Assembly: GCA_938003775.1 (NCBI GenBank)
Contig: CALKXZ010000425.1
Span: forward strand, 1-33,333
Length of the DNA stretch: 33,333 nt
Origin: an uncultured Granulosicoccus sp.
GTDB lineage: Bacteria; Pseudomonadota; Gammaproteobacteria; Granulosicoccales; Granulosicoccaceae
Direction: 5' to 3'
How positions within the stretch are numbered: the first letter of the stretch is position 1; every line of letters begins with the position of its first letter. Below, piece after piece: positions 6,257 to 28,570 of this stretch. Both the position numbers and the translations under genes were made by a program. The notes beneath the pieces are model-generated. The model was not told the DNA's origin and did not search any database. It worked only from the letters and a program-made list of their open reading frames with translations.

Positions 6257-6875
6257 TTAACCAACTCTCGTTGGCGGACACTTTACCCAGCAAGCACGCA
6301 GCCGCCAGCAGACACCCATGAATAGATTTTGTTAAACGCCCCTATGGCGATCAACTACAACAGCAGACACCCATTAATAAATCTCGTTAAGCGCCCATAT
6401 GGCGATCAACCACAACAGCAGACACCCATGTTTAGATTAGATTTCGGCAGAAGTCCGCTTGGTTAAGGTCTGTTACTGCCAGACATTAGCGATTATGCGC
6501 AGACTTAAAACGGGCTCAGCGCACTGAGTGTTACCAATGAACGATTAGGTAGCAAGATCGCCATCCGCTAATTATGGCCGTCACTGAGGCTAATAACCCT
6601 CAAACAATCTGATTGAGCCCCATAGCGCAAGCAATAGTCGATTCAAGCACGCCAAAGTCGGATTTATGGGTGTCTGAAATCGCGGTATAGCCTTTTCTTG
6701 TTTGACACGAATGTCGGCAAATGAGATTCTACGTCTCATTACTGGGCTAACCATGCCCCGGTATGCATGTGTCTCATCAGGCATTAGTAGATTTATAATG
6801 CAAGTTGCGACACGTGGTTATCGGGTAGTTGCCAATAGACGGTAGCGCCCACGACATCCATTTGGAGGAAACTGC
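6257..6875 (+). other. 619-base gap with repeats and no gene
   Basis: I see no convincing reading frame here. The left half holds the 55-bp tandem repeat described separately. An inverted copy of its core word lies at 6663-6675 (TTTATGGGTGTCT). The right end carries a strong ribosome binding site (GGAGG, 6864-6868) for the TRAP binding-protein gene. The promoter for that gene must lie in this gap but no good -35/-10 pair stands out. Confidence 0.7.
6306..6429 (+). repeat. 55-bp tandem repeat (two full copies and a third start)
   Basis: Units begin at 6306, 6361 and 6416 with CAGCAGACACCCAT. Units 1 and 2 are each exactly 55 bases and differ at about 7 positions (about 87% identity); unit 3 keeps the first 14 bases and then diverges. 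Each full unit carries a small hairpin, CGCC...GGCG (6337-6340 with 6346-6349, and 55 bases further on), inside a GTT...AAC frame. Units abut without spacers, so this is not a CRISPR array. It resembles a REP-type intergenic element. Confidence 0.85.
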
Positions 6876-7976
6876 ATGCGCAGCACACTGCTCAAGACGC
6901 TTGGTGCTTCGGTCGCCCTGACCGCACTAACCACCCTGACCGCACAAGCGGCCACTACTATCAAGATTCAATCGGTCCTGAACGATAAGGCCGATGAGAT
7001 CGTGATGCTGAAAGATTTCGCAACCACTGTCAGTGAGCTGACAGATGGCGAAATCAATATCGAAGTACTACCAAACAACTCAGTCGTTGCTGGTGCGGAC
7101 ATCATGGACGCCGTGGACAAAGGTCTACTCGACGGTGGATTTGCTTGGACTCACTACTGGTCAGGCAAACACCCAGCAGCCATGCTATTCGGTTCTCCAG
7201 TAGCTGGCGCTGGCGTTGGTATTGACAACATCGCTTTCCTGTCCTGGTTCCAATATGGCGGCGGCCGTGAACTTTATGATCGTCTCTGGGGCGAAATGGG
7301 CGTCAATGTGAAAGGCCTGTTGCTGCAACCTGTTGGCCCCGAAGCACTGGGCTGGTTCAAAGAACCTATCAACAGCATGGACGATTTTCGCAAGCTGCGT
7401 TTCCGTGCACCTCCAGGCATTCCTGGCCAGACCTATAACGACATTGGTGTAGCCGCTGTTGCCATGGGTGGTGGAGACATTCTGCCTGCGCTGGAAAAAG
7501 GCACTATCGACGCAGCGGAATGGTGCTGCCCGAAGCCTGACAGCGTATTTGGTTTCCAGAAAGTACTGAAGCATTACTACCTGCAGGGTTTGCATCAGGT
7601 AGTCGTTAACGCCGATATGTACATCAACGGCGACGTATGGGCGAAACTGACACCACTGCAACAAAAAGCAATGGAAGTGGCTGCTGATGCATCATTAAGC
7701 AAGTCCATGAGCTACCGCATCTATGAAAACGGTAAGGCCCTGAAGAACCTAGTTGACAACGAAGGTGTTCAATTACATGACACACCTGCTGACTACTTCA
7801 CTGAGTATATGGCTGCTGCAAACGCAACCTTGGAAAAGAATGCCGCTGAAAATGAATTCTTCAACGAAGTCTGGACTTCAATGAAAGAATTTGCAGAAGT
7901 TGCTGTACCTTTCTGGGCTGGTTCGCAAACATCCAATGCGGCTCTAGGTAATGCCTACGCCAATTCACTGAAGTAA
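6876..7976 (+). CDS. TRAP transporter substrate-binding protein (DctP/TakP-like)
   Basis: The 366-residue product has a clear Sec signal peptide (cleavage after AQA, about residue 25) and is then a typical TRAP binding protein. The central part has the family's ligand-binding Arg in KLRFRAPPG (Arg177). It also has the ...GGDILPALEKGTIDAAEW block (Glu215-Trp216) that in TakP-like proteins lines the pocket for carboxylate ligands. Organic acids such as 2-oxo acids or lactate are therefore the likely substrates, though several binding-site positions differ from TakP (AEWCCPKPDS instead of AEWxGP). It has a strong ribosome binding site, GGAGG, 7 bases before the ATG. It captures substrate in the periplasm and delivers it to the permeases encoded next, from which it is separated by a terminator hairpin. 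Confidence 0.93.
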   Translation: MRSTLLKTLGASVALTALTTLTAQAATTIKIQSVLNDKADEIVMLKDFATTVSELTDGEINIEVLPNNSVVAGADIMDAVDKGLLDGGFAWTHYWSGKHPAAMLFGSPVAGAGVGIDNIAFLSWFQYGGGRELYDRLWGEMGVNVKGLLLQPVGPEALGWFKEPINSMDDFRKLRFRAPPGIPGQTYNDIGVAAVAMGGGDILPALEKGTIDAAEWCCPKPDSVFGFQKVLKHYYLQGLHQVVVNADMYINGDVWAKLTPLQQKAMEVAADASLSKSMSYRIYENGKALKNLVDNEGVQLHDTPADYFTEYMAAANATLEKNAAENEFFNEVWTSMKEFAEVAVPFWAGSQTSNAALGNAYANSLK

Positions 7977-8044
7977 TAGTGTTACAAGCATCATTCATGC
8001 GTTGAACTTCATTACGTTCACAACTGACTAGATGCAAAACAAAC

Positions 8045-8084
8045 CAGGCCCCGTGAGCTCAACGCTTCGGGGCCTGATTCTTTT
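8045..8084 (+). terminator. Intra-operon terminator after the TRAP binding protein
   Basis: A perfect 9-bp GC-rich stem, CAGGCCCCG (8045-8053) with CGGGGCCTG (8068-8076), is followed by ATTCTTTT. Placed between binding protein and permease genes, it would end most transcripts and so give an excess of binding protein over membrane subunits. Confidence 0.85.
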
Positions 8085-8198
8085 AAGCCATCAGGAATAC
8101 AGGCTTGATTGACTTAGCATTAATTGATACGCCCTCGATCCGCTAACACTGTACCTTCACCCTCCCTTTCGACACTAAACACGACAGGCGCTCACCAC

Positions 8199-8885
8199 AT
8201 GGCTGAAGAAGTCGACCCCTCCAAATTAGAAATTGCAGACGAGCTTATTGCTGAGCGCCGATCTGCCGCTCCGGGCCAGTTGCCCGAAGACATGAACCCC
8301 TTGCACAGAAAGATCATTGGTTTCATCGATACCACGAATGATTGGGTTGGCAAGATTGTCTGCTGGTTCATTGTGCCTTTATGCCTGGCGATGGTGTACG
8401 AGGTGATTGCCCGCAAATTCGGTATTTCACCCAGCGCTTGGTTAGCTGAAATATCGCGGGTATTTAATAACCCAGATGCCCCAAGCCAAATTCAACCGGC
8501 GCCCACCCTGTGGGCCTACGATGTAAGCCGCATGCTGTACGGCGCACTTTTTATGCTGGGGGCTGGTTATGCGCTGTCCAAGGGTGTGCACATCCGAGCC
8601 GATTTCATCTATCGAAACTGGTCTGATCGCACGCAAGGCATTGTTGATCTTTTTCTGTATGTCACGTTGTATTTCGTCGCTATGGGTTTTCTGTTTTGGT
8701 ACGGCGCCGAGTACGCCTGGACAGCCTGGTCGCGTGGTGAACGTGCCATGGACACCGCTTGGATGCCACAACTGGGTCCCATTCGCTCTGCTATTCCTAT
8801 CGGTGCTTTCCTGCTGATCATGCAAGGGGTGTCCGAATCATTGAAAAGTTGGTATGCCGCAACCCGTGGGAGATGGCCGGTATGA
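8199..8885 (+). CDS. TRAP transporter small permease (DctQ-type)
   Basis: This 228-residue protein has a hydrophilic N-terminus of about 45 residues and then four hydrophobic segments, as expected for the DctQ subunit. The first begins near WVGKIVCWFIVPLCLAMVYEVIARK; the second follows WAYDVSRMLYGALFMLGAGYAL; then come VHIRADF and two more helices. I chose the ATG at 8199 (MAEEVDPSK); a TTG at 8124 would add 25 residues without family character. The insert between the first two helices (about 25 residues, NNPDAPSQIQPAP) is longer than in compact DctQ proteins and is typical of the subfamily with larger permeases. The stop codon overlaps the start of the large permease gene (ATGA), indicating translational coupling. 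Confidence 0.9.
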   Translation: MAEEVDPSKLEIADELIAERRSAAPGQLPEDMNPLHRKIIGFIDTTNDWVGKIVCWFIVPLCLAMVYEVIARKFGISPSAWLAEISRVFNNPDAPSQIQPAPTLWAYDVSRMLYGALFMLGAGYALSKGVHIRADFIYRNWSDRTQGIVDLFLYVTLYFVAMGFLFWYGAEYAWTAWSRGERAMDTAWMPQLGPIRSAIPIGAFLLIMQGVSESLKSWYAATRGRWPV

Positions 8886-10243
8886 GTCCTGAAATTATCG
8901 GTCTATTCATGATCGGGGCGATGTTGTTCGCCATCTTTATCGGTTTTCCCATTTCGTTCACGCTCATTTTTCTGGGTACCGTATTTGGCTACTGGGGTTT
9001 TGGCCAACTAACCTTCTATCTCGAGATGTTGCAGTTCAACAGCGCGATGATGGAGCAAACACTCTCAGCGGTGCCGTTGTTTATTTTCATGGGCATTCTG
9101 ATGGAACAAGCGGGCCTGATGGAGCGGTTGTTTACCGCCGTGCAACTCATGCTTTCTCGAGTTCGCGGTTCTTTATATATTGCGGTTTTGTTTGTATCCA
9201 CCATCTTCGCAGCAGCAACCGGTATTGTTGGCGCATCGGTCACTATCTTGGGCATCATGGCTGCCAAGACCATGAATCGCAGTGGTTACGATGTGCAACT
9301 GTCTGCAGGTGCCATCACTGCTGGTGGTACGCTGGGCATTCTGATTCCGCCCAGTATCATGCTAGTGGTTATGGGCCCCATCATGGAAGTGCCGGTAACC
9401 GACCTATTCGCAGCGGCAATTATTCCCGGCATGCTAATGGCCTTTCTGTATGTTGGTTACGCGCTAGTACGCTGCCATCTGAACCCATCACTCGGACCCG
9501 TACTTCCTGAGGAATACCGCGCCGATTCAATGTGGGTCATTGTTCGTGAATTCTTGTTAGGTCTGGTACCTCCAGCTGCGCTGGTTGGTTTCGCACTGGG
9601 AAGTATTCTATTGGGTCTTGCCACACCCACTGAGGGCGCGGCAATGGGCGCATTTGGCGCATTTCTGTTAACGGTTGCCTATCGCAAACTGACTTACAAA
9701 AAATTCCGCGATGCGCTGATTAAAACGCTGGAAATCTCGGTGCTCATCTTGTTTCTGGTGGCGGCTTCCAACTTTTTTGGTGCAGTCTTTTCCAAGCTTG
9801 GCACACCAGGGATGCTAACTGAGTACCTGCTAACGCTTGAGTTCTCGCCCTACATCGTTCTGATTATTATCATGGCGTTGATTTTCTTACTGGGCTGGCC
9901 TTTAGAATGGGTGCCGATCGTTTTGATCATCGTACCGATTTTGCTACCACTGGTTGAAAGCCTGGAATTCACGGGGGTCCTGGCTAACACACAGGATCGA
10001 CTTATCTGGTTCGGCATACTGGTGGCGGTAAATCTACAAACCGCGTGGTTATCCCCACCTGTGGCGTTGTCTGCCTACTTCCTTAAAGGTGTTGTGCCTG
10101 AATGGGATCTGAAGGACATCTACTTCGGCATGATGCAATTCATGGTCATCCAGCTACTGGGACTGATTCTGATCATCGCCTTCCCGATGATCGCCCTGTG
10201 GCTGCCACACTACTTCGACGCTCAAGCTGCTCTGGGCAACTAA
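8882..10243 (+). CDS. TRAP transporter large permease (DctM-type)
   Basis: The 453-residue product is almost wholly hydrophobic, with about a dozen membrane segments. It carries DctM signatures: FIGFPISFTL near the start, PLFIFMGILMEQAG, GTLGILIPPSIMLVVMG, ATPTEGAAMGAFGAF and LPLVESLEF. DctM is the Na+-coupled transport subunit that moves substrate released by the binding protein. The ATG at 8882 overlaps the TGA of the small permease by ATGA and has GGGAG about 10 bases upstream; an ATG three codons earlier (8873) is possible. An upstream in-frame start at 8759 lies deep inside the previous gene and is not credible. A strong terminator follows at 10273. Confidence 0.93.
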   Translation: MSPEIIGLFMIGAMLFAIFIGFPISFTLIFLGTVFGYWGFGQLTFYLEMLQFNSAMMEQTLSAVPLFIFMGILMEQAGLMERLFTAVQLMLSRVRGSLYIAVLFVSTIFAAATGIVGASVTILGIMAAKTMNRSGYDVQLSAGAITAGGTLGILIPPSIMLVVMGPIMEVPVTDLFAAAIIPGMLMAFLYVGYALVRCHLNPSLGPVLPEEYRADSMWVIVREFLLGLVPPAALVGFALGSILLGLATPTEGAAMGAFGAFLLTVAYRKLTYKKFRDALIKTLEISVLILFLVAASNFFGAVFSKLGTPGMLTEYLLTLEFSPYIVLIIIMALIFLLGWPLEWVPIVLIIVPILLPLVESLEFTGVLANTQDRLIWFGILVAVNLQTAWLSPPVALSAYFLKGVVPEWDLKDIYFGMMQFMVIQLLGLILIIAFPMIALWLPHYFDAQAALGN

Positions 10244-10272
10244 CGCGCCGTTTTCGTCGAGTACCAAACAGG

Positions 10273-10317
10273 CCCGCAATTGCTCGCGTTTAGCGCGCCA
10301 ATTGCGGGTCTTTCTTG
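10273..10317 (+). terminator. Rho-independent terminator of the TRAP operon
   Basis: A perfect 10-bp stem, CCCGCAATTG (10273-10282) with CAATTGCGGG (10299-10308), has a GC-rich loop and is followed by the T-rich TCTTTCTT. It lies 30 bases after the large permease stop. Confidence 0.87.
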
Positions 10318-10457
10318 GTTATCAGGGCGCGGTTTTCCCTTTTCGACTTAACCACTGGCCTGAATGATTGCAGGATTCCAGGCTAGGACGAACCAGGTAA
10401 TTTCAATGTTCACCCTACTCAATAAATTCAGAACGACAGTCGTGTCCGGAGAACACC

Positions 10458-11093
10458 ATGCTTGATCAATTTCTCGGTTTTGGTCAGATCATCATCGCTG
10501 ACCTTGTTCTTTCCGGTGATAACGCACTGATTATCGGCATGGCAGCAGCGGGGCTTGCGCCGCCACTGCGGAAAAAAGCCATTCTCTATGGGATGATCAT
10601 AGCCGCCGTTTTGCGCGTCGTATTTGCTGTCATCGCTACTAAACTGCTGGGTATTCCTGGCATTTACTTTATCGGTGGCTTGCTGTTGTTTTGGGTCTGC
10701 TGGCGATTATTCGCTGAAATTCGTCAGGGTGTGGACGCAGAAGCCGAGCATGCGATGGCCTTGGCTAGTGATGATTCAGAAGGCTACACAGGGGCACCCA
10801 GGCGGAGTCTGGGCGCAGCGTTACTATCAATCACCATTGCCGACATTTCCATGTCACTGGACAATGTTCTGGCGGTCGCCGCCATTGCTGACGGTGATAC
10901 TCGCCAACTGGTTTTCGGTTTGGCGCTAGCGATTGTGCTGATGGCTTTCGCCGCTACCATGATTATGAAACTACTGGCTCGTTACCCATGGATTTCGTGG
11001 GTCGGACTAATAGTGCTGGTTTACGTATCGGCGGACATGCTCTATCGCGGTGTTTTCGATCCGAGAACCGGAATCCTGGCCATGCTGACCTAA
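10458..11093 (+). CDS. TerC-family integral membrane protein (YjbE-like)
   Basis: The 211-residue protein has six or seven hydrophobic segments and the two acidic membrane motifs of the TerC/LysE-type superfamily: LVLSGDNALIIGMAA near the N-terminus (Asp21-Asn22) and ISMSLDNVLAVAAIA in the second half. Between the halves is a polar loop (residues about 90-118). TerC-family proteins of this short type are implicated in metal-ion handling, notably manganese export, often to supply exported metalloenzymes; the ion here cannot be told from sequence. A GGAGA ribosome binding site lies 6 bases before the ATG. I looked for a yybP-ykoY manganese riboswitch upstream and did not recognise one. Confidence 0.88.
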   Translation: MLDQFLGFGQIIIADLVLSGDNALIIGMAAAGLAPPLRKKAILYGMIIAAVLRVVFAVIATKLLGIPGIYFIGGLLLFWVCWRLFAEIRQGVDAEAEHAMALASDDSEGYTGAPRRSLGAALLSITIADISMSLDNVLAVAAIADGDTRQLVFGLALAIVLMAFAATMIMKLLARYPWISWVGLIVLVYVSADMLYRGVFDPRTGILAMLT

Positions 11094-11097
11094 ATAG

Positions 11098-11119
11098 CGA
11101 CTTAACAGGGCGTAAGTCG
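11098..11119 (+). other. Hairpin just after the TerC-family gene
   Basis: A 7-bp perfect stem, CGACTTA (11098-11104) with TAAGTCG (11113-11119), begins 5 bases after the stop codon. It lacks a T-tract, so it may be an mRNA 3'-end structure rather than a full terminator. Confidence 0.5.
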
Positions 11120-11264
11120 TGACAGACAAAGGTAGTCGGCAATGGGTTGCAGTGAGCTCCTGAACGGTGCAAACAAGCGTAATTAATCAATGACATCCCT
11201 TTAACCCATGAAGCCAAGCAGGTAACCTCTACGGTTCAACTGATTCATACGCAAATCAATACCT

Positions 11265-12257
11265 GTGAAAGCTCTGGTCTACACTGGCACGCAAAGTCTC
11301 GAATTCCGTGAAGAACCGATGCCTAAAGCATCGGCCAATGAGTCTCTCGTACGCATTGAAGCGTCCGGAATATGCGGCTCTGATATGCACGCTTGGCATG
11401 GTCACGATGCCAGGCGAGTTCCACCGATGATTCTGGGTCATGAGCTCTCTGGTGTTGTTATCGGTGGTACCAGAGACGGTGAGCGTGTGGCAATCAACCC
11501 GCTGATTACTTGCGGTCAGTGCCGCGATTGTCGTGCAGGTCTGCCCAATCTGTGCGCGTCACGGGATCTCCTCGGTCTGGGCAGAGCGGGTGGGTATGCC
11601 CAGCATGTTAGCGCTCCAACTGACAATCTACTGGCCATTCCAGATTCACTGCACGCAGTACACGCCAGCTTGATGGAACCCACGGCGGTATCGCTGCATG
11701 CGATACACCTCGCCGAGCGCGTGTTGAGCCGACCTATTTCAGAATGCCGTAGTCTGGTTATTGGTGGCGGTGCCATCGGCGCATTGGCTGCACTCATTCT
11801 TCAGCAAAAAGGCGCCCGTGAGATTGCAATAGCAGAGACCAGTGATTTTCGAAGAGACAGTTTGCAGGCCATGTGTAACGCCGTCGTTTACGACCCTCTA
11901 TCCGCCGACACCCCACCTGACAACCATTTTGAATTAGTCATAGATGCCGTCGGTAGTGGCGCTACTCGCAATGCGGCCAGCAAGCTCGTCAGAACAGGCG
12001 GTGTTATTTCACACATTGGGTTACAGGACAACGAAGCAGGTCTCGACACGCGTCGACTCACACTGCAGGAAATTAAATTCATTGGTAATTACACCTATAA
12101 CCCAAGTGACTTACAAGCGTCACTGGATCTACTCGCAGAAGGGGCGTTAGGCTCACTCAACTGGGTTGAAACACGCGCTTTGGCAGACGGTGCAGAGGCC
12201 TTCAACGACATACATCACGCACGCACATCAGCCCCCAAAATAGTATTACTGCCGTAA
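11265..12257 (+). CDS. Zinc-dependent medium-chain alcohol/polyol dehydrogenase
   Basis: The 330-residue protein is a medium-chain dehydrogenase with a GroES-like catalytic half and a Rossmann half. Catalytic zinc ligands are visible as Cys37 in GICGSDMH and His59-Glu60 in GHE. The structural-zinc lobe is CGQCRDCRAGLPNLC (Cys83, 86, 89, 97). The coenzyme-binding glycine motif is VIGGGAIGALAAL. The overall pattern is closest to sorbitol, threonine or galactitol-1-phosphate-type dehydrogenases, so oxidation of a secondary alcohol with NAD+ is the likely reaction; the substrate is not assigned. The start is a GTG and no good ribosome binding site precedes it. It stands alone between the TerC-family gene and a secreted-protein gene, 171 bases after the former. 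Confidence 0.9.
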   Translation: MKALVYTGTQSLEFREEPMPKASANESLVRIEASGICGSDMHAWHGHDARRVPPMILGHELSGVVIGGTRDGERVAINPLITCGQCRDCRAGLPNLCASRDLLGLGRAGGYAQHVSAPTDNLLAIPDSLHAVHASLMEPTAVSLHAIHLAERVLSRPISECRSLVIGGGAIGALAALILQQKGAREIAIAETSDFRRDSLQAMCNAVVYDPLSADTPPDNHFELVIDAVGSGATRNAASKLVRTGGVISHIGLQDNEAGLDTRRLTLQEIKFIGNYTYNPSDLQASLDLLAEGALGSLNWVETRALADGAEAFNDIHHARTSAPKIVLLP

Positions 12258-12408
12258 CCCCTATGATTTGCAATAGACAATCCTCTCAAACACCTGATCA
12301 CCCTACCTAAGCGCCATCGATTGAATTCCACAACCCGAAACATCCATGGTTTTGCGGGCCTTTATCCCTGCAGAAAGTCTCACTAACTAATGGAAATGAC
12401 GTTTATTC

Positions 12409-12438
12409 ATGGTTCAGTGCAAACTGGTGCTGAACCAT
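12409..12438. promoter_or_regulatory. Inverted repeat upstream of the secreted Cys-rich protein
   Basis: A perfect 9-bp inverted repeat, ATGGTTCAG (12409-12417) and CTGAACCAT (12430-12438), is centred about 60 bases before the ATG at 12484. No T-tract follows on either strand, so an operator is as likely as a terminator for the upstream dehydrogenase. Confidence 0.4.
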
Positions 12439-12483
12439 TACCTCATTCAAGTATCAATTGTTCAACTTCTGATTTAGAAAATC

Positions 12484-16642: not shown

Positions 16643-16758
16643 TGCTGGACAGGAAAGAAGAAAACGCGTGTGACAGCGTGTTGCATGGCTTTTGCATCAT
16701 TCACGAATCGGCCGATATTTAACCCGATTTGTTCCTACAGACACAGCACCCAGCGCAC

Positions 16759-17856
16759 ATGATGATCCAACCCTGCCCTAAGGTTCAAGCCACAAACATT
16801 GATCTGGACTTATCAGACACCCACAACTCTCTCCCGCAGTCCCTGCTTGGCACAGCAGACACCCATATAACGATCGACCCTTCCATGCCCGGCAAACAGC
16901 ACGGCCACCTGGTGCTGCCGTATGCCAACGCCGAATCAGGGACAAAGCAACTCAGGATTCCGGTGTGTTCGATCACCGGCACGCAGCCCGGTCCAACCGT
17001 AACGATGATGGCGGGGGTGCACGGTGATGAGTACGAAGGATCGTTGGCCTTACAGCGCATGGCACGGGGGCTGGCGGCAGATTCAGTTTATGGGTGTCTA
17101 ATATTGGTACCCGCGGTGAATACGCTGGGACTGCGCCGTGCGCGGCGTTGTTCGCCATTGGATGGGATGGATATGGATCGGTGTTTTCCAGGGACGGCGA
17201 TGGGCTCTATCAGCGAGCGTGTGGCTCACGAGATTTTCGAACGACTCATTCGCCCATCTGACCTCGTTGTGGATCTGCGCTCGGGGGGAGGGGCACTTGA
17301 ATTTGCGCCGCTGGCGGCTGTGCGGTTTATGGGTGTCTTAAATAGACCCGCTGAACTGCAGGCACGAGCTGAGGAGGCGATGATTGCGTTCGGCGCGCCA
17401 AACAGTGTGCGATTTCCAGCGAGTGTTTTTGGAAGCTGTCTGCAAGCGGCGGTGGATGCTGCCGGTAAGGCCTACGTGCAGACAGAGCTTGGTGGTGGCG
17501 GAGGCTGTCGTGCGGAGACCTTGGATATTGCCCAGGTCGGTTGTCATAACGTGCTGCGCCAAGTTGGGCTTCTCAAAAGTGAGGTGCAACTGCGCCATTC
17601 GCGCATGCTGGAAGTACGTGACAGCTCGTTCTATGTGTACGCAACCACTGACGGACTCTTCGAACCGCATGTGCATCTGGGCCATGAGCTCTGGCAGGGC
17701 GACACGTTGGCAAGCCTGATTAGCATTGACAATACAGGCAGCGAGCCTCATCTCGTTGCGGTGCCTCGAAACGGTGTACTGCTTGGACTGCACCACGGTG
17801 GTCCGGTGGCAGCAGGGGATTTAATTGCGGTGCTGGCTGATGAAGTGCAACGCTAA
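16759..17856 (+). CDS. DoeB-like succinylglutamate desuccinylase/aspartoacylase-family protein with altered metal site
   Basis: The 365-residue product aligns by eye with the zinc amidohydrolases of the AstE/ASPA family, closest to DoeB (N-acetyl-diaminobutyrate deacetylase). It has PGKQHGHLVLPYA, then GVHGDEYEG with the first two zinc ligands (His88, Glu91), CSPLDGMDMDRCFPG, and TELGGGGGCRAETLDIA with the catalytic Glu region. The third zinc ligand normally lies in VDLHSGG, but here the sequence is VDLRSGG (Arg174, codon 17278-17280), and the usual NMNR is DMDR. Deacetylase activity is therefore doubtful; a changed or lost function is inference. I chose the ATG at 16759; a TTG at 16729 would add 10 residues. 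The gene also holds four copies of a short DNA word shared with the intergenic 55-bp repeat. It is divergent from the anion permease. Confidence 0.85.
   Translation: MMIQPCPKVQATNIDLDLSDTHNSLPQSLLGTADTHITIDPSMPGKQHGHLVLPYANAESGTKQLRIPVCSITGTQPGPTVTMMAGVHGDEYEGSLALQRMARGLAADSVYGCLILVPAVNTLGLRRARRCSPLDGMDMDRCFPGTAMGSISERVAHEIFERLIRPSDLVVDLRSGGGALEFAPLAAVRFMGVLNRPAELQARAEEAMIAFGAPNSVRFPASVFGSCLQAAVDAAGKAYVQTELGGGGGCRAETLDIAQVGCHNVLRQVGLLKSEVQLRHSRMLEVRDSSFYVYATTDGLFEPHVHLGHELWQGDTLASLISIDNTGSEPHLVAVPRNGVLLGLHHGGPVAAGDLIAVLADEVQR
16815..17338. repeat. Four copies of the AGACACCCAT word inside a gene
   Basis: Copies lie at 16815-16823 (9 of 10 bases), 16857-16866 (as part of ACAGCAGACACCCAT, identical to the start of 55-bp units 2 and 3), and, inverted as TTTATGGGTGTCT, at 17087-17099 and 17326-17338. 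The last two are identical 13-mers read in different codon phases (VYGCL and FMGVL). The word is otherwise confined to 6310-6675 in this window. Confidence 0.75.
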
Positions 17857-21248: not shown

Positions 21249-21284
21249 GGGATTACCTGAGGGATTACCTGAGGGATTACCTGA
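21249..21284 (+). repeat. Three exact tandem copies of a 12-bp unit
   Basis: GGGATTACCTGA occurs at 21249-21260, 21261-21272 and 21273-21284, starting 25 bases after the GH16 stop. The first copy also pairs with AATCCC (21240-21245) to form a 6-bp hairpin with a three-base loop. It is a likely slippage site; no function is evident. Confidence 0.85.
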
Positions 21285-21459
21285 GTGGCTTGTGAAATAT
21301 GCAACAAATTTCACAACTCTGTGCGCGGCATCGTGGCCGGTCGTGTACAGACACGACATCGAAGCAATATACGACGTTTTGTTAGGTTAGATATGTGACA
21401 GCCATTTAACATGTGGGTTAGGGTATCGGTACACTGCAAAGAAAACCCTAATCCTCTCC

Positions 21460-27349: not shown

Positions 27350-28540
27350 TTATCGAGAGGTTGAAGAGATCTTGTGGATACTCAAATCAGCCCCATTGAA
27401 TTCTTCCTCTTCGCTCAGGCGGATACCCACCAGCGCCTTCAGAACACCATAGACAGCAAATCCACCCAAGGTGGCAACGCTTATACCGGCCAGCGTACCA
27501 ATGATCTGACTGACCAGGCTAACCTGACCCAGTCCACCGAATAGTTCACTGCCAAAGATACCTGCTGCAATACCGCCCCAGGCACCGCACAGACCGTGCA
27601 AAGGCCAGACACCCAGTACATCATCAATACGCCAGCGATTCTGGGCCAACTTAAAGGTCACGACAAATAGAACACCCGCAATAGCACCCACGACCAAAGA
27701 GCCGACCGGGTGCATGATATCGGAGCCGGCGCACACCGCTACCAACCCTGCCAGCGGTCCATTGTGTAAAAAGCCTGGGTCCGCGCGACCGGCCATTAGC
27801 GCGGCAATAGCACCACCGGCCATGGCCATCAGTGAATTCATGGCAACCAAACCACTAATACCCTCAACGCTTTGCGCGGACATAACGTTAAAACCAAACC
27901 AGCCTACCGTTAGAATCCACGCACCTAACGCAAGGAACGGAATACTACTGGGTGCAAAGTTACTACTGGCTGCACCGCTGCGGTTGTATCGCCCCTGCCG
28001 GGCACCCAGCATAATCACAGCACCCAACGCCAGCCAACCACCCATGGCGTGCACCACGACAGAACCAGCAAAATCATGAAAAGCGAAACCGGTGGTGGAT
28101 TCAAGCCAGGCCTGAAACCCGAGATTGCCATTCCAGATGAGTCCTTCAAAGAACGGGTAGATCAGAGCGACAATAATAATAGAGGCTGCAATTTGCGGAT
28201 AAAAACGCGCACGCTCTGCAATTCCGCCAGAAATGATCGCCGGAATGGCTGCGGCAAACGTCAGTAGAAAAAAGAATTTGACCAGTGCAAAACCATTGTT
28301 TATGGCAAGCTCAGAGGCTGGTGCTAAAAAATCGATACCGTAGGCCAGTGGGTAACCGATGAAAAAATAAGCCACTGTGCACACCGCGAAGTCGGAAAAT
28401 ATTTTAACCAGTGCATTAACCTGATTTTTCTCGCGTACCGTGCCCACCTCCAGAAAGGCGAACCCGGCGTGCATGAACAGCACCAGGATAGCACCCAGCA
28501 GCACAAACATAACATCACTACCGACTTGCAATGACTCCAT
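27350..28540 (-). CDS. amtB: Ammonium transporter Amt
   Basis: The 396-residue product is an Amt/Rh family channel without a cleavable signal peptide, giving 11 or so membrane helices. It has MFVLLGAILVLFMHAGFAFLEVGTVREKN at the start in outline. It also has the pore histidines in FHDFAGSVVVHAMGGW and in WPLHGLCGAWGG. It conducts ammonium into the cell when nitrogen is scarce and is closed by GlnK, whose gene follows it. I chose the ATG at 28540 (MESLQVGSD), which has a GAGAAAC sequence upstream; a TTG at 28552 is less likely. The order amtB-glnK is the reverse of the common glnK-amtB operon. A sigma-54-like element lies just upstream. Confidence 0.95.
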   Translation of the reverse strand: MESLQVGSDVMFVLLGAILVLFMHAGFAFLEVGTVREKNQVNALVKIFSDFAVCTVAYFFIGYPLAYGIDFLAPASELAINNGFALVKFFFLLTFAAAIPAIISGGIAERARFYPQIAASIIIVALIYPFFEGLIWNGNLGFQAWLESTTGFAFHDFAGSVVVHAMGGWLALGAVIMLGARQGRYNRSGAASSNFAPSSIPFLALGAWILTVGWFGFNVMSAQSVEGISGLVAMNSLMAMAGGAIAALMAGRADPGFLHNGPLAGLVAVCAGSDIMHPVGSLVVGAIAGVLFVVTFKLAQNRWRIDDVLGVWPLHGLCGAWGGIAAGIFGSELFGGLGQVSLVSQIIGTLAGISVATLGGFAVYGVLKALVGIRLSEEEEFNGADLSIHKISSTSR

Positions 28541-28570
28541 TTTGTTTCTCAACTCGCCAAAAAGCGCTAA

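Follow-up and report, generated by a model that had tools for sequence, protein, structure and literature searches.

The window, the whole 33,333-nucleotide stretch of DNA analysed here, carries a DoeB-like gene in which one short DNA word recurs four times (Table 1). In accordance with a preliminary description made from the letters alone, four copies are present, one of them matching at 9 of 10 bases, and the two copies on the minus strand lie in identical 13-mers (TTTATGGGTGTCT) that are read in different codon phases (1 and 0). The earlier estimate that such a word should occur about 0.06 times in the window by chance agrees with the 0.066 computed from base composition; if one mismatch is allowed, nine matches are found against 1.8 expected, and none of 100 shuffled sequences got to nine. 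The word had also been described as confined, outside the gene, to the 55-bp repeats. This has to be corrected, since a reverse copy (6666-6675) and a 9/10 copy (at 27607) also exist. The wider profile of the word is AnCAGACACCCAYAWA with the core GACACCCA, and this profile is not palindromic. It shows neither GT[AG]G nor a consistent hairpin pairing and thus lacks what defines a canonical REP, namely GT[AG]G at the foot of a palindromic hairpin.

Table 1 Word copies and related features; positions are those of the window
Feature	Position	Strand	Remarks
DoeB-like gene (AstE/AspA-type deacylase)	16729-17856	+	holds the four words; Pfam AstE_AspA_cat E=1e-28
Word AGACACCCAC, 9/10 copy	16815-16824	+	codon phase 2, read SDTHN
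Word AGACACCCAT	16857-16866	+	codon phase 2, read ADTHI
13-mer TTTATGGGTGTCT	17087-17099	+	word on minus strand, 17090-17099; codon phase 1, read YGCLI
13-mer TTTATGGGTGTCT	17326-17338	+	word on minus strand, 17329-17338; codon phase 0, read MGVLN
55-bp tandem repeat, 2.3 copies	6306-6430	+	non-coding; word in each copy, at 6310, 6365 and 6420
Third 13-mer TTTATGGGTGTCT	6663-6675	+	non-coding; word on minus strand, 6666-6675
9/10 copy AGACACCCAG	27607-27616	+	within ORF 27350-28552; membership uncertain, may be chance
mutY word cluster			L021 (G000 C118), L271 (G024 C54), L272 (G011 C30), L229 (G018 C36)

Copies of the word were counted in the draft genome to which the window belongs (G000, 481 contigs, 4.58 Mb in total) and in a relative of the same genus whose chromosome is in one contig (G023, 7.78 Mb). 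The preliminary description had set its claim against a uniform background occurrence across the genome, and the occurrence is indeed not uniform. G000 has 38 copies of AGACACCCAT against 18 of the reversed word, on few contigs, and 21 copies of AGACACCCAYAAA, again on few contigs, against none of the reversed control. In G023, 19 of the 21 exact copies of AGACACCCAYAAA lie within 95 kb (7.241-7.337 Mb), with the 20th at 7.281 Mb in the same span, and the core is present 37 times in 120 kb as compared to three times for the control. When this relative is divided into 20-kb bins, the core peaks with 9 and 12 copies near the position of a transposase gene; the remaining bins hold 0-4 copies, apart from one with seven some 70 kb off. 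The word-rich contigs of G000 (C338, C421, C432 and C379) and the window all map to this same region. Contamination of the metagenome-assembled genome is an unlikely source of the word-rich contigs because, except for the one carrying mutY, they all have their counterparts in a single region of a complete relative. Forward and reverse words are about equally frequent (14 and 15), and this lack of strand bias speaks against a polar replication signal. G023 lacks about 6 kb of the window with a TRAP-type transporter and other genes (6260-12480), a segment that bears the 55-bp word repeats at its left edge; its flanking orthologues are at 7331.6 and 7332.2 kb in G023, with the segment missing between them.

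The gene at the centre of the cluster lies outside the window, and about 20-45 kb separate it from the sequence homologous to the window. In G023 (7306611-7307612) it adjoins gpmI and encodes a Y1/HUH protein of 333 aa; the copy of G000 is at C432:1076-2062. Homologues with at least 57% identity are present in G000, G011, G018 and G024 and absent from the remaining 22 of the 27 genus genomes; the transposase-positive genomes (G000, G011, G018, G023 and G024) are exactly the five word-rich ones. The proteins of this clade have the motifs NHFH and YVDLNP, and Y, N and P are invariant in the alignment, as in the Y---NP signature of class 2 HuH enzymes. Profile matches were obtained to NCBIfam REP_Tyr_transpos (E=1e-10, 41.7 bits against a curated cut-off of 80) and to Pfam Y1_Tnp (E=0.0023, 18.5 bits against a curated cut-off of 23). 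Sequence searches of the PDB with the transposase gave no match, unlike a fold search, in which the RAYT-REP complex 4er8 came first (E=7e-4, TM 0.66 on the target), followed by IS200/IS605 transposases; the AlphaFold2 model of the transposase has a pLDDT of 86. YVDLNP is present in 69 of 71 relatives, whose hosts include Pseudoalteromonas, Shewanella and Colwellia. By length, motifs and hosts, the predicted protein fits TnpA-Y1 subclass 2.3 (REP-associated tyrosine transposase, RAYT), for which a median length of 325 aa, YVDLNP and an occurrence in Chromatiales and Alteromonadales have been described and for which neither automatic nor manual searches found a REP-like sequence (Quentin et al. 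2018, PMC6006769).

The transposase gene of the window's clade is single-copy, is found in one place, beside gpmI, and is inherited vertically. Its flanks have no terminal inverted repeats: upstream words are reversed in G011 and G024, they are in both orientations in G018, and in G023 there is no word within 400 bp upstream of the gene. As a single-copy gene beside gpmI that lacks the usual flanking orientation, the transposase gene is probably immobile in this clade. A second, small word cluster was seen around mutY in G000, G024, G011 and G018; in G023, about 1 Mb separates mutY from the RAYT gene and the mutY words are missing. An inversion in G023 may have carried the mutY locus away from the RAYT gene.

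The usual orientation is apparent from other Gammaproteobacteria. Scanning one genome per species gave 80 loci of the family (L142-L221), from Pseudoalteromonas, Shewanella, Colwellia, Marinomonas, Microbulbifer and others. Once the transposase gene was masked, 189 copies of GACACCCA were counted at these loci against 36 of the reversed word, and GACACCCA is the most widespread flanking 8-mer on either side of the genes. All 60 copies within 400 bp upstream are on the strand of the gene and all 37 copies 200-400 bp downstream are on the opposite strand. Counted by locus, the upstream word is present in 40 of 79 (none reversed), the downstream word in 22 of 77 (with one in the other orientation) and both in 18 of 76. 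The genes in these genera are thus flanked by terminal inverted repeats, the hallmark of TIRYTs and TIRtrons; a consistent hairpin was not found in the word at these loci. The exact word is present in only about half of them; in the others there may be variants, for instance GACAGCCA or GACACTCA, and GACATCCA is a further lineage variant. The earlier proposal of a REP fragment or binding site therefore stands in so far as the word is the core of the terminal inverted repeats of RAYT-like HUH transposases, but not in the sense of a palindromic GT[AG]G REP. The upstream word is often closely trailed by TTGACA-like bases in the 80 loci, so that an overlap with the promoter of the transposase gene, and with it a role in autoregulation, is possible.

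Beyond 800 bp from the genes, the non-coding word density in the other genera is 0.184 per kb as compared to about 0.02 for permuted words, with Microbulbifer thermotolerans (L153) and L148 as the clearest examples of a non-coding interspersed repeat. Coding DNA of these genera is not enriched (0.031 per kb, within the control range). Coding arrays are therefore so far seen only in the window's clade, tandem copies in two ORFs of G028 aside; this genome belongs to another genus of the same family, and the copies are at L236 10372-10595 and L237 135-277. Near the gene, the five transposase-positive genomes have a coding word density of 0.35-0.68 per kb, as compared to 0.02-0.07 for permuted words, and the words inside genes occupy every codon phase and both strands.

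That the DNA word and not the protein is conserved, as had been suspected from the window, is borne out by the alignment of orthologues, by synonymous shuffling and by 8-mer conservation. The DoeB orthologues of the transposase-positive genomes have words at the same aligned codons. The word at 16815-16824 is common to G023, G024, G011 and G018 and absent in G013, G006, G015 and G005; at 16857-16866 the core GACACCCA is present in G024, G011, G018 and G006, the last of which also keeps the protein motif DTH; the word at 17087-17099 is common to all five transposase-positive genomes and differs by one base in G013; and that at 17326-17338 is exact in G023 and kept as the core in G024 and G018. 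DoeB orthologues of G013, G015, G005 and G019 are without the word and those of G006 and G007 have one each. The words are thus not fixed codons in all orthologues; outside the transposase-positive clade, orthologues mostly lack them. The observation extends beyond DoeB: in the gene for a UvrD-like helicase, 5 or 6 of 6 words are at the same codons in G011, G018 and G024.

Chance or protein constraint as the origin of the repeats is hardly conceivable in light of these data. A few sites do sit in conserved protein motifs (VWVSE in mutY, DTH at 16857), as this explanation would have it, but permutation of synonymous codons in the five DoeB genes gave a mean of 3.15 and a maximum of 9 cores in 5000 trials where 22 are observed, and in 64 of 93 comparisons a word of G023 recurs in another genome at an unchanged codon position, against 9.15 expected. 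Several codon phases, both strands and the mostly word-free orthologues outside the clade also argue against it. For the set as a whole, it is refuted by shuffling, common positions and 8-mer conservation. At the protein level, the reading of the words (DTHK, FMGV, QTPI) follows the DNA.

Where MutY, GpmI and DoeB have word sites, those relatives that do not have the word carry non-word codons of the same length. The coding words consequently arose by substitution and not by insertion, and the idea of an insertion scar, also raised at first, has to be given up. The origin by same-length substitution bears as well on the view that the words are passively inherited residues of REP-like elements which the RAYT once inserted. 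The word does occur in other genera as a non-coding interspersed repeat near the RAYT, and the 55-bp tandem of the window resembles such an element; REP-like residues may therefore explain the non-coding copies. The coding copies, however, are conserved far above neighbouring sequence, as passive residues would not be: gap-free aligned words are identical in 63 of 76 cases against 7.3% of the other 8-mers of the same genes. This refutes the residues for the coding copies and makes them an improbable account of the words overall. Owing to the common ancestry of several genomes, neither these comparisons nor those of codon positions are independent.

A natural loss of the transposase is provided by G013. 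In the tree of GpmI, TatC and DoeB this genome is nested within the transposase-positive genomes (98.4/96), and the DoeB tree is concordant; no RAYT end was found in the 415 bases adjoining its gpmI. The five transposase-positive genomes may go back to one evolutionary gain, and G013 is a single loss. Seven coding words are common to G000 and G023 and are therefore older than G013. G013 has kept none of these seven, whereas G024, G011 and G018 together have kept 13 of 21 (Fisher p=0.005), in a test that comprises one event, small numbers, interrelated sister genomes and one tatC site in a poorly aligned tail.

Taken together, we regard it as likely that the word is the recognition sequence of a HUH (Y1) RAYT similar to subclass 2.3 and that the array of the clade persists through the enzyme. 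Against this count the gene's own flanks in the clade with their deviating word orientation, profile scores under the curated cut-offs, the mutY cluster, a gain that may have been a single one, the single loss, and the exact word in only about half of the loci of other genera. The data are best read as a domesticated transposase with a RAYT-dependent array of putative recognition sites in coding DNA. TnpA-REP proteins cut and rejoin single-stranded DNA at their own repeat (PMC8266576); by analogy, the RAYT would bind single-stranded DNA at the words and probably nick and rejoin it. The enzyme would act, together with its inverted words, as a mobile or REP-like system in most lineages, whereas in the window's clade the words would have been turned into a maintained array, point substitutions having made them over roughly 100 kb, including the DoeB-like gene, after which they would have been kept in place. 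Candidate forces that could keep them are a host function of the array, an enzyme that repeatedly rewrites near-matching sites, or a molecular drive via linkage to the transposase gene; the latter would explain that words fall off with distance. Our more specific proposal is tentative, and we put it at somewhat less than even: a domesticated single-stranded DNA transposase would keep a centromere- or uptake-like asymmetric site array in the surrounding genes, either as a host function (regional processing or recombination of single-stranded DNA) or by local molecular drive in which word-bearing linked fragments are preferentially copied, and protein sequences would adapt to the DNA word.

Short words made by substitution, on both strands, within genes and conserved, are also known from uptake sequences, matS and parS. 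DNA uptake sequences are spread over whole genomes; matS and parS are palindromes to which other proteins bind. To our knowledge, none of these arrays is centred on the gene of a HUH transposase. A site that organises the host chromosome, as parS, matS or Noc sites do, and that is bound by another protein, in a region that attracts or tolerates the RAYT, would share with the words their regional clustering, their presence on both strands and in genes and their strong conservation. We consider it unlikely: word density peaks at the RAYT, the word is non-palindromic, and in many genera it lies in inverted orientation on the two sides of RAYTs of the same family. An origin by substitution, presence on both strands, location in genes and strong conservation would equally be expected of a DNA-uptake-type sequence that biased import during transformation had spread, independently of the RAYT. 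This is very unlikely, as the words track one gene and are not genome-wide; their concentration in 95 kb of 7.78 Mb excludes a genome-wide uptake word with its hundreds of copies. The words are better accounted for by the recognition sequence of the RAYT.

The nearest published work is that of Nunvar et al. 2010 (PMC2817692) and that on TIRYTs (PMC3733652). The former described that repeats accumulate near rayt, in some marine Gammaproteobacteria within at most 200 kb, and, as here, repeat numbers track the presence of the cognate gene; those REPs are palindromic and mostly extragenic, whereas the word described here is asymmetric and lies in genes at fixed codon positions (PMC2817692). TIRYTs and TIRtrons (Di Nocera et al. 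2013) are likewise HUH transposase genes between terminal inverted repeats, and some of these repeats make up families, but they have the consensus GGGGWSAS, belong mostly to another subclass (2.1), and no conserved array embedded in coding DNA was described for them (PMC3733652). With subclass 2.3 the transposase shares a length of about 325-333 aa, YVDLNP, NHxH, extra internal and C-terminal parts and marine Gammaproteobacteria as hosts. It differs in that a non-palindromic inverted word flanks the genes where the survey reported no REP-like sequence, and in that the window's clade has a single-copy gene and words in coding DNA (PMC6006769). The word is thus a candidate cognate sequence for this subclass. 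A search of the open-access literature returned papers without evident connection and no report of the word, and its novelty is limited to that scope. What emerges is a transposase-linked site, born by substitution, that is strongly conserved inside protein genes and absent where there is no transposase. Mapped sites in several genomes together with one natural loss make binding, cutting and fitness effects, and with them the question of why RAYTs are retained by bacteria, directly testable.

Other repeats were seen along the way. Another word, the palindromic TCTACRYRYGTAGA, is repeated in many genomes of the genus, where the control has almost no matches, and in G013 it is present in tandem copies in a coding-like stretch beside gpmI (L285 121-254, G013 C262). 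Two repeats of the window are unrelated to the word, a 9/27-bp tandem repeat in a coding region (473-550) and three copies of GGGATTACCTGA in tandem (21249-21285).
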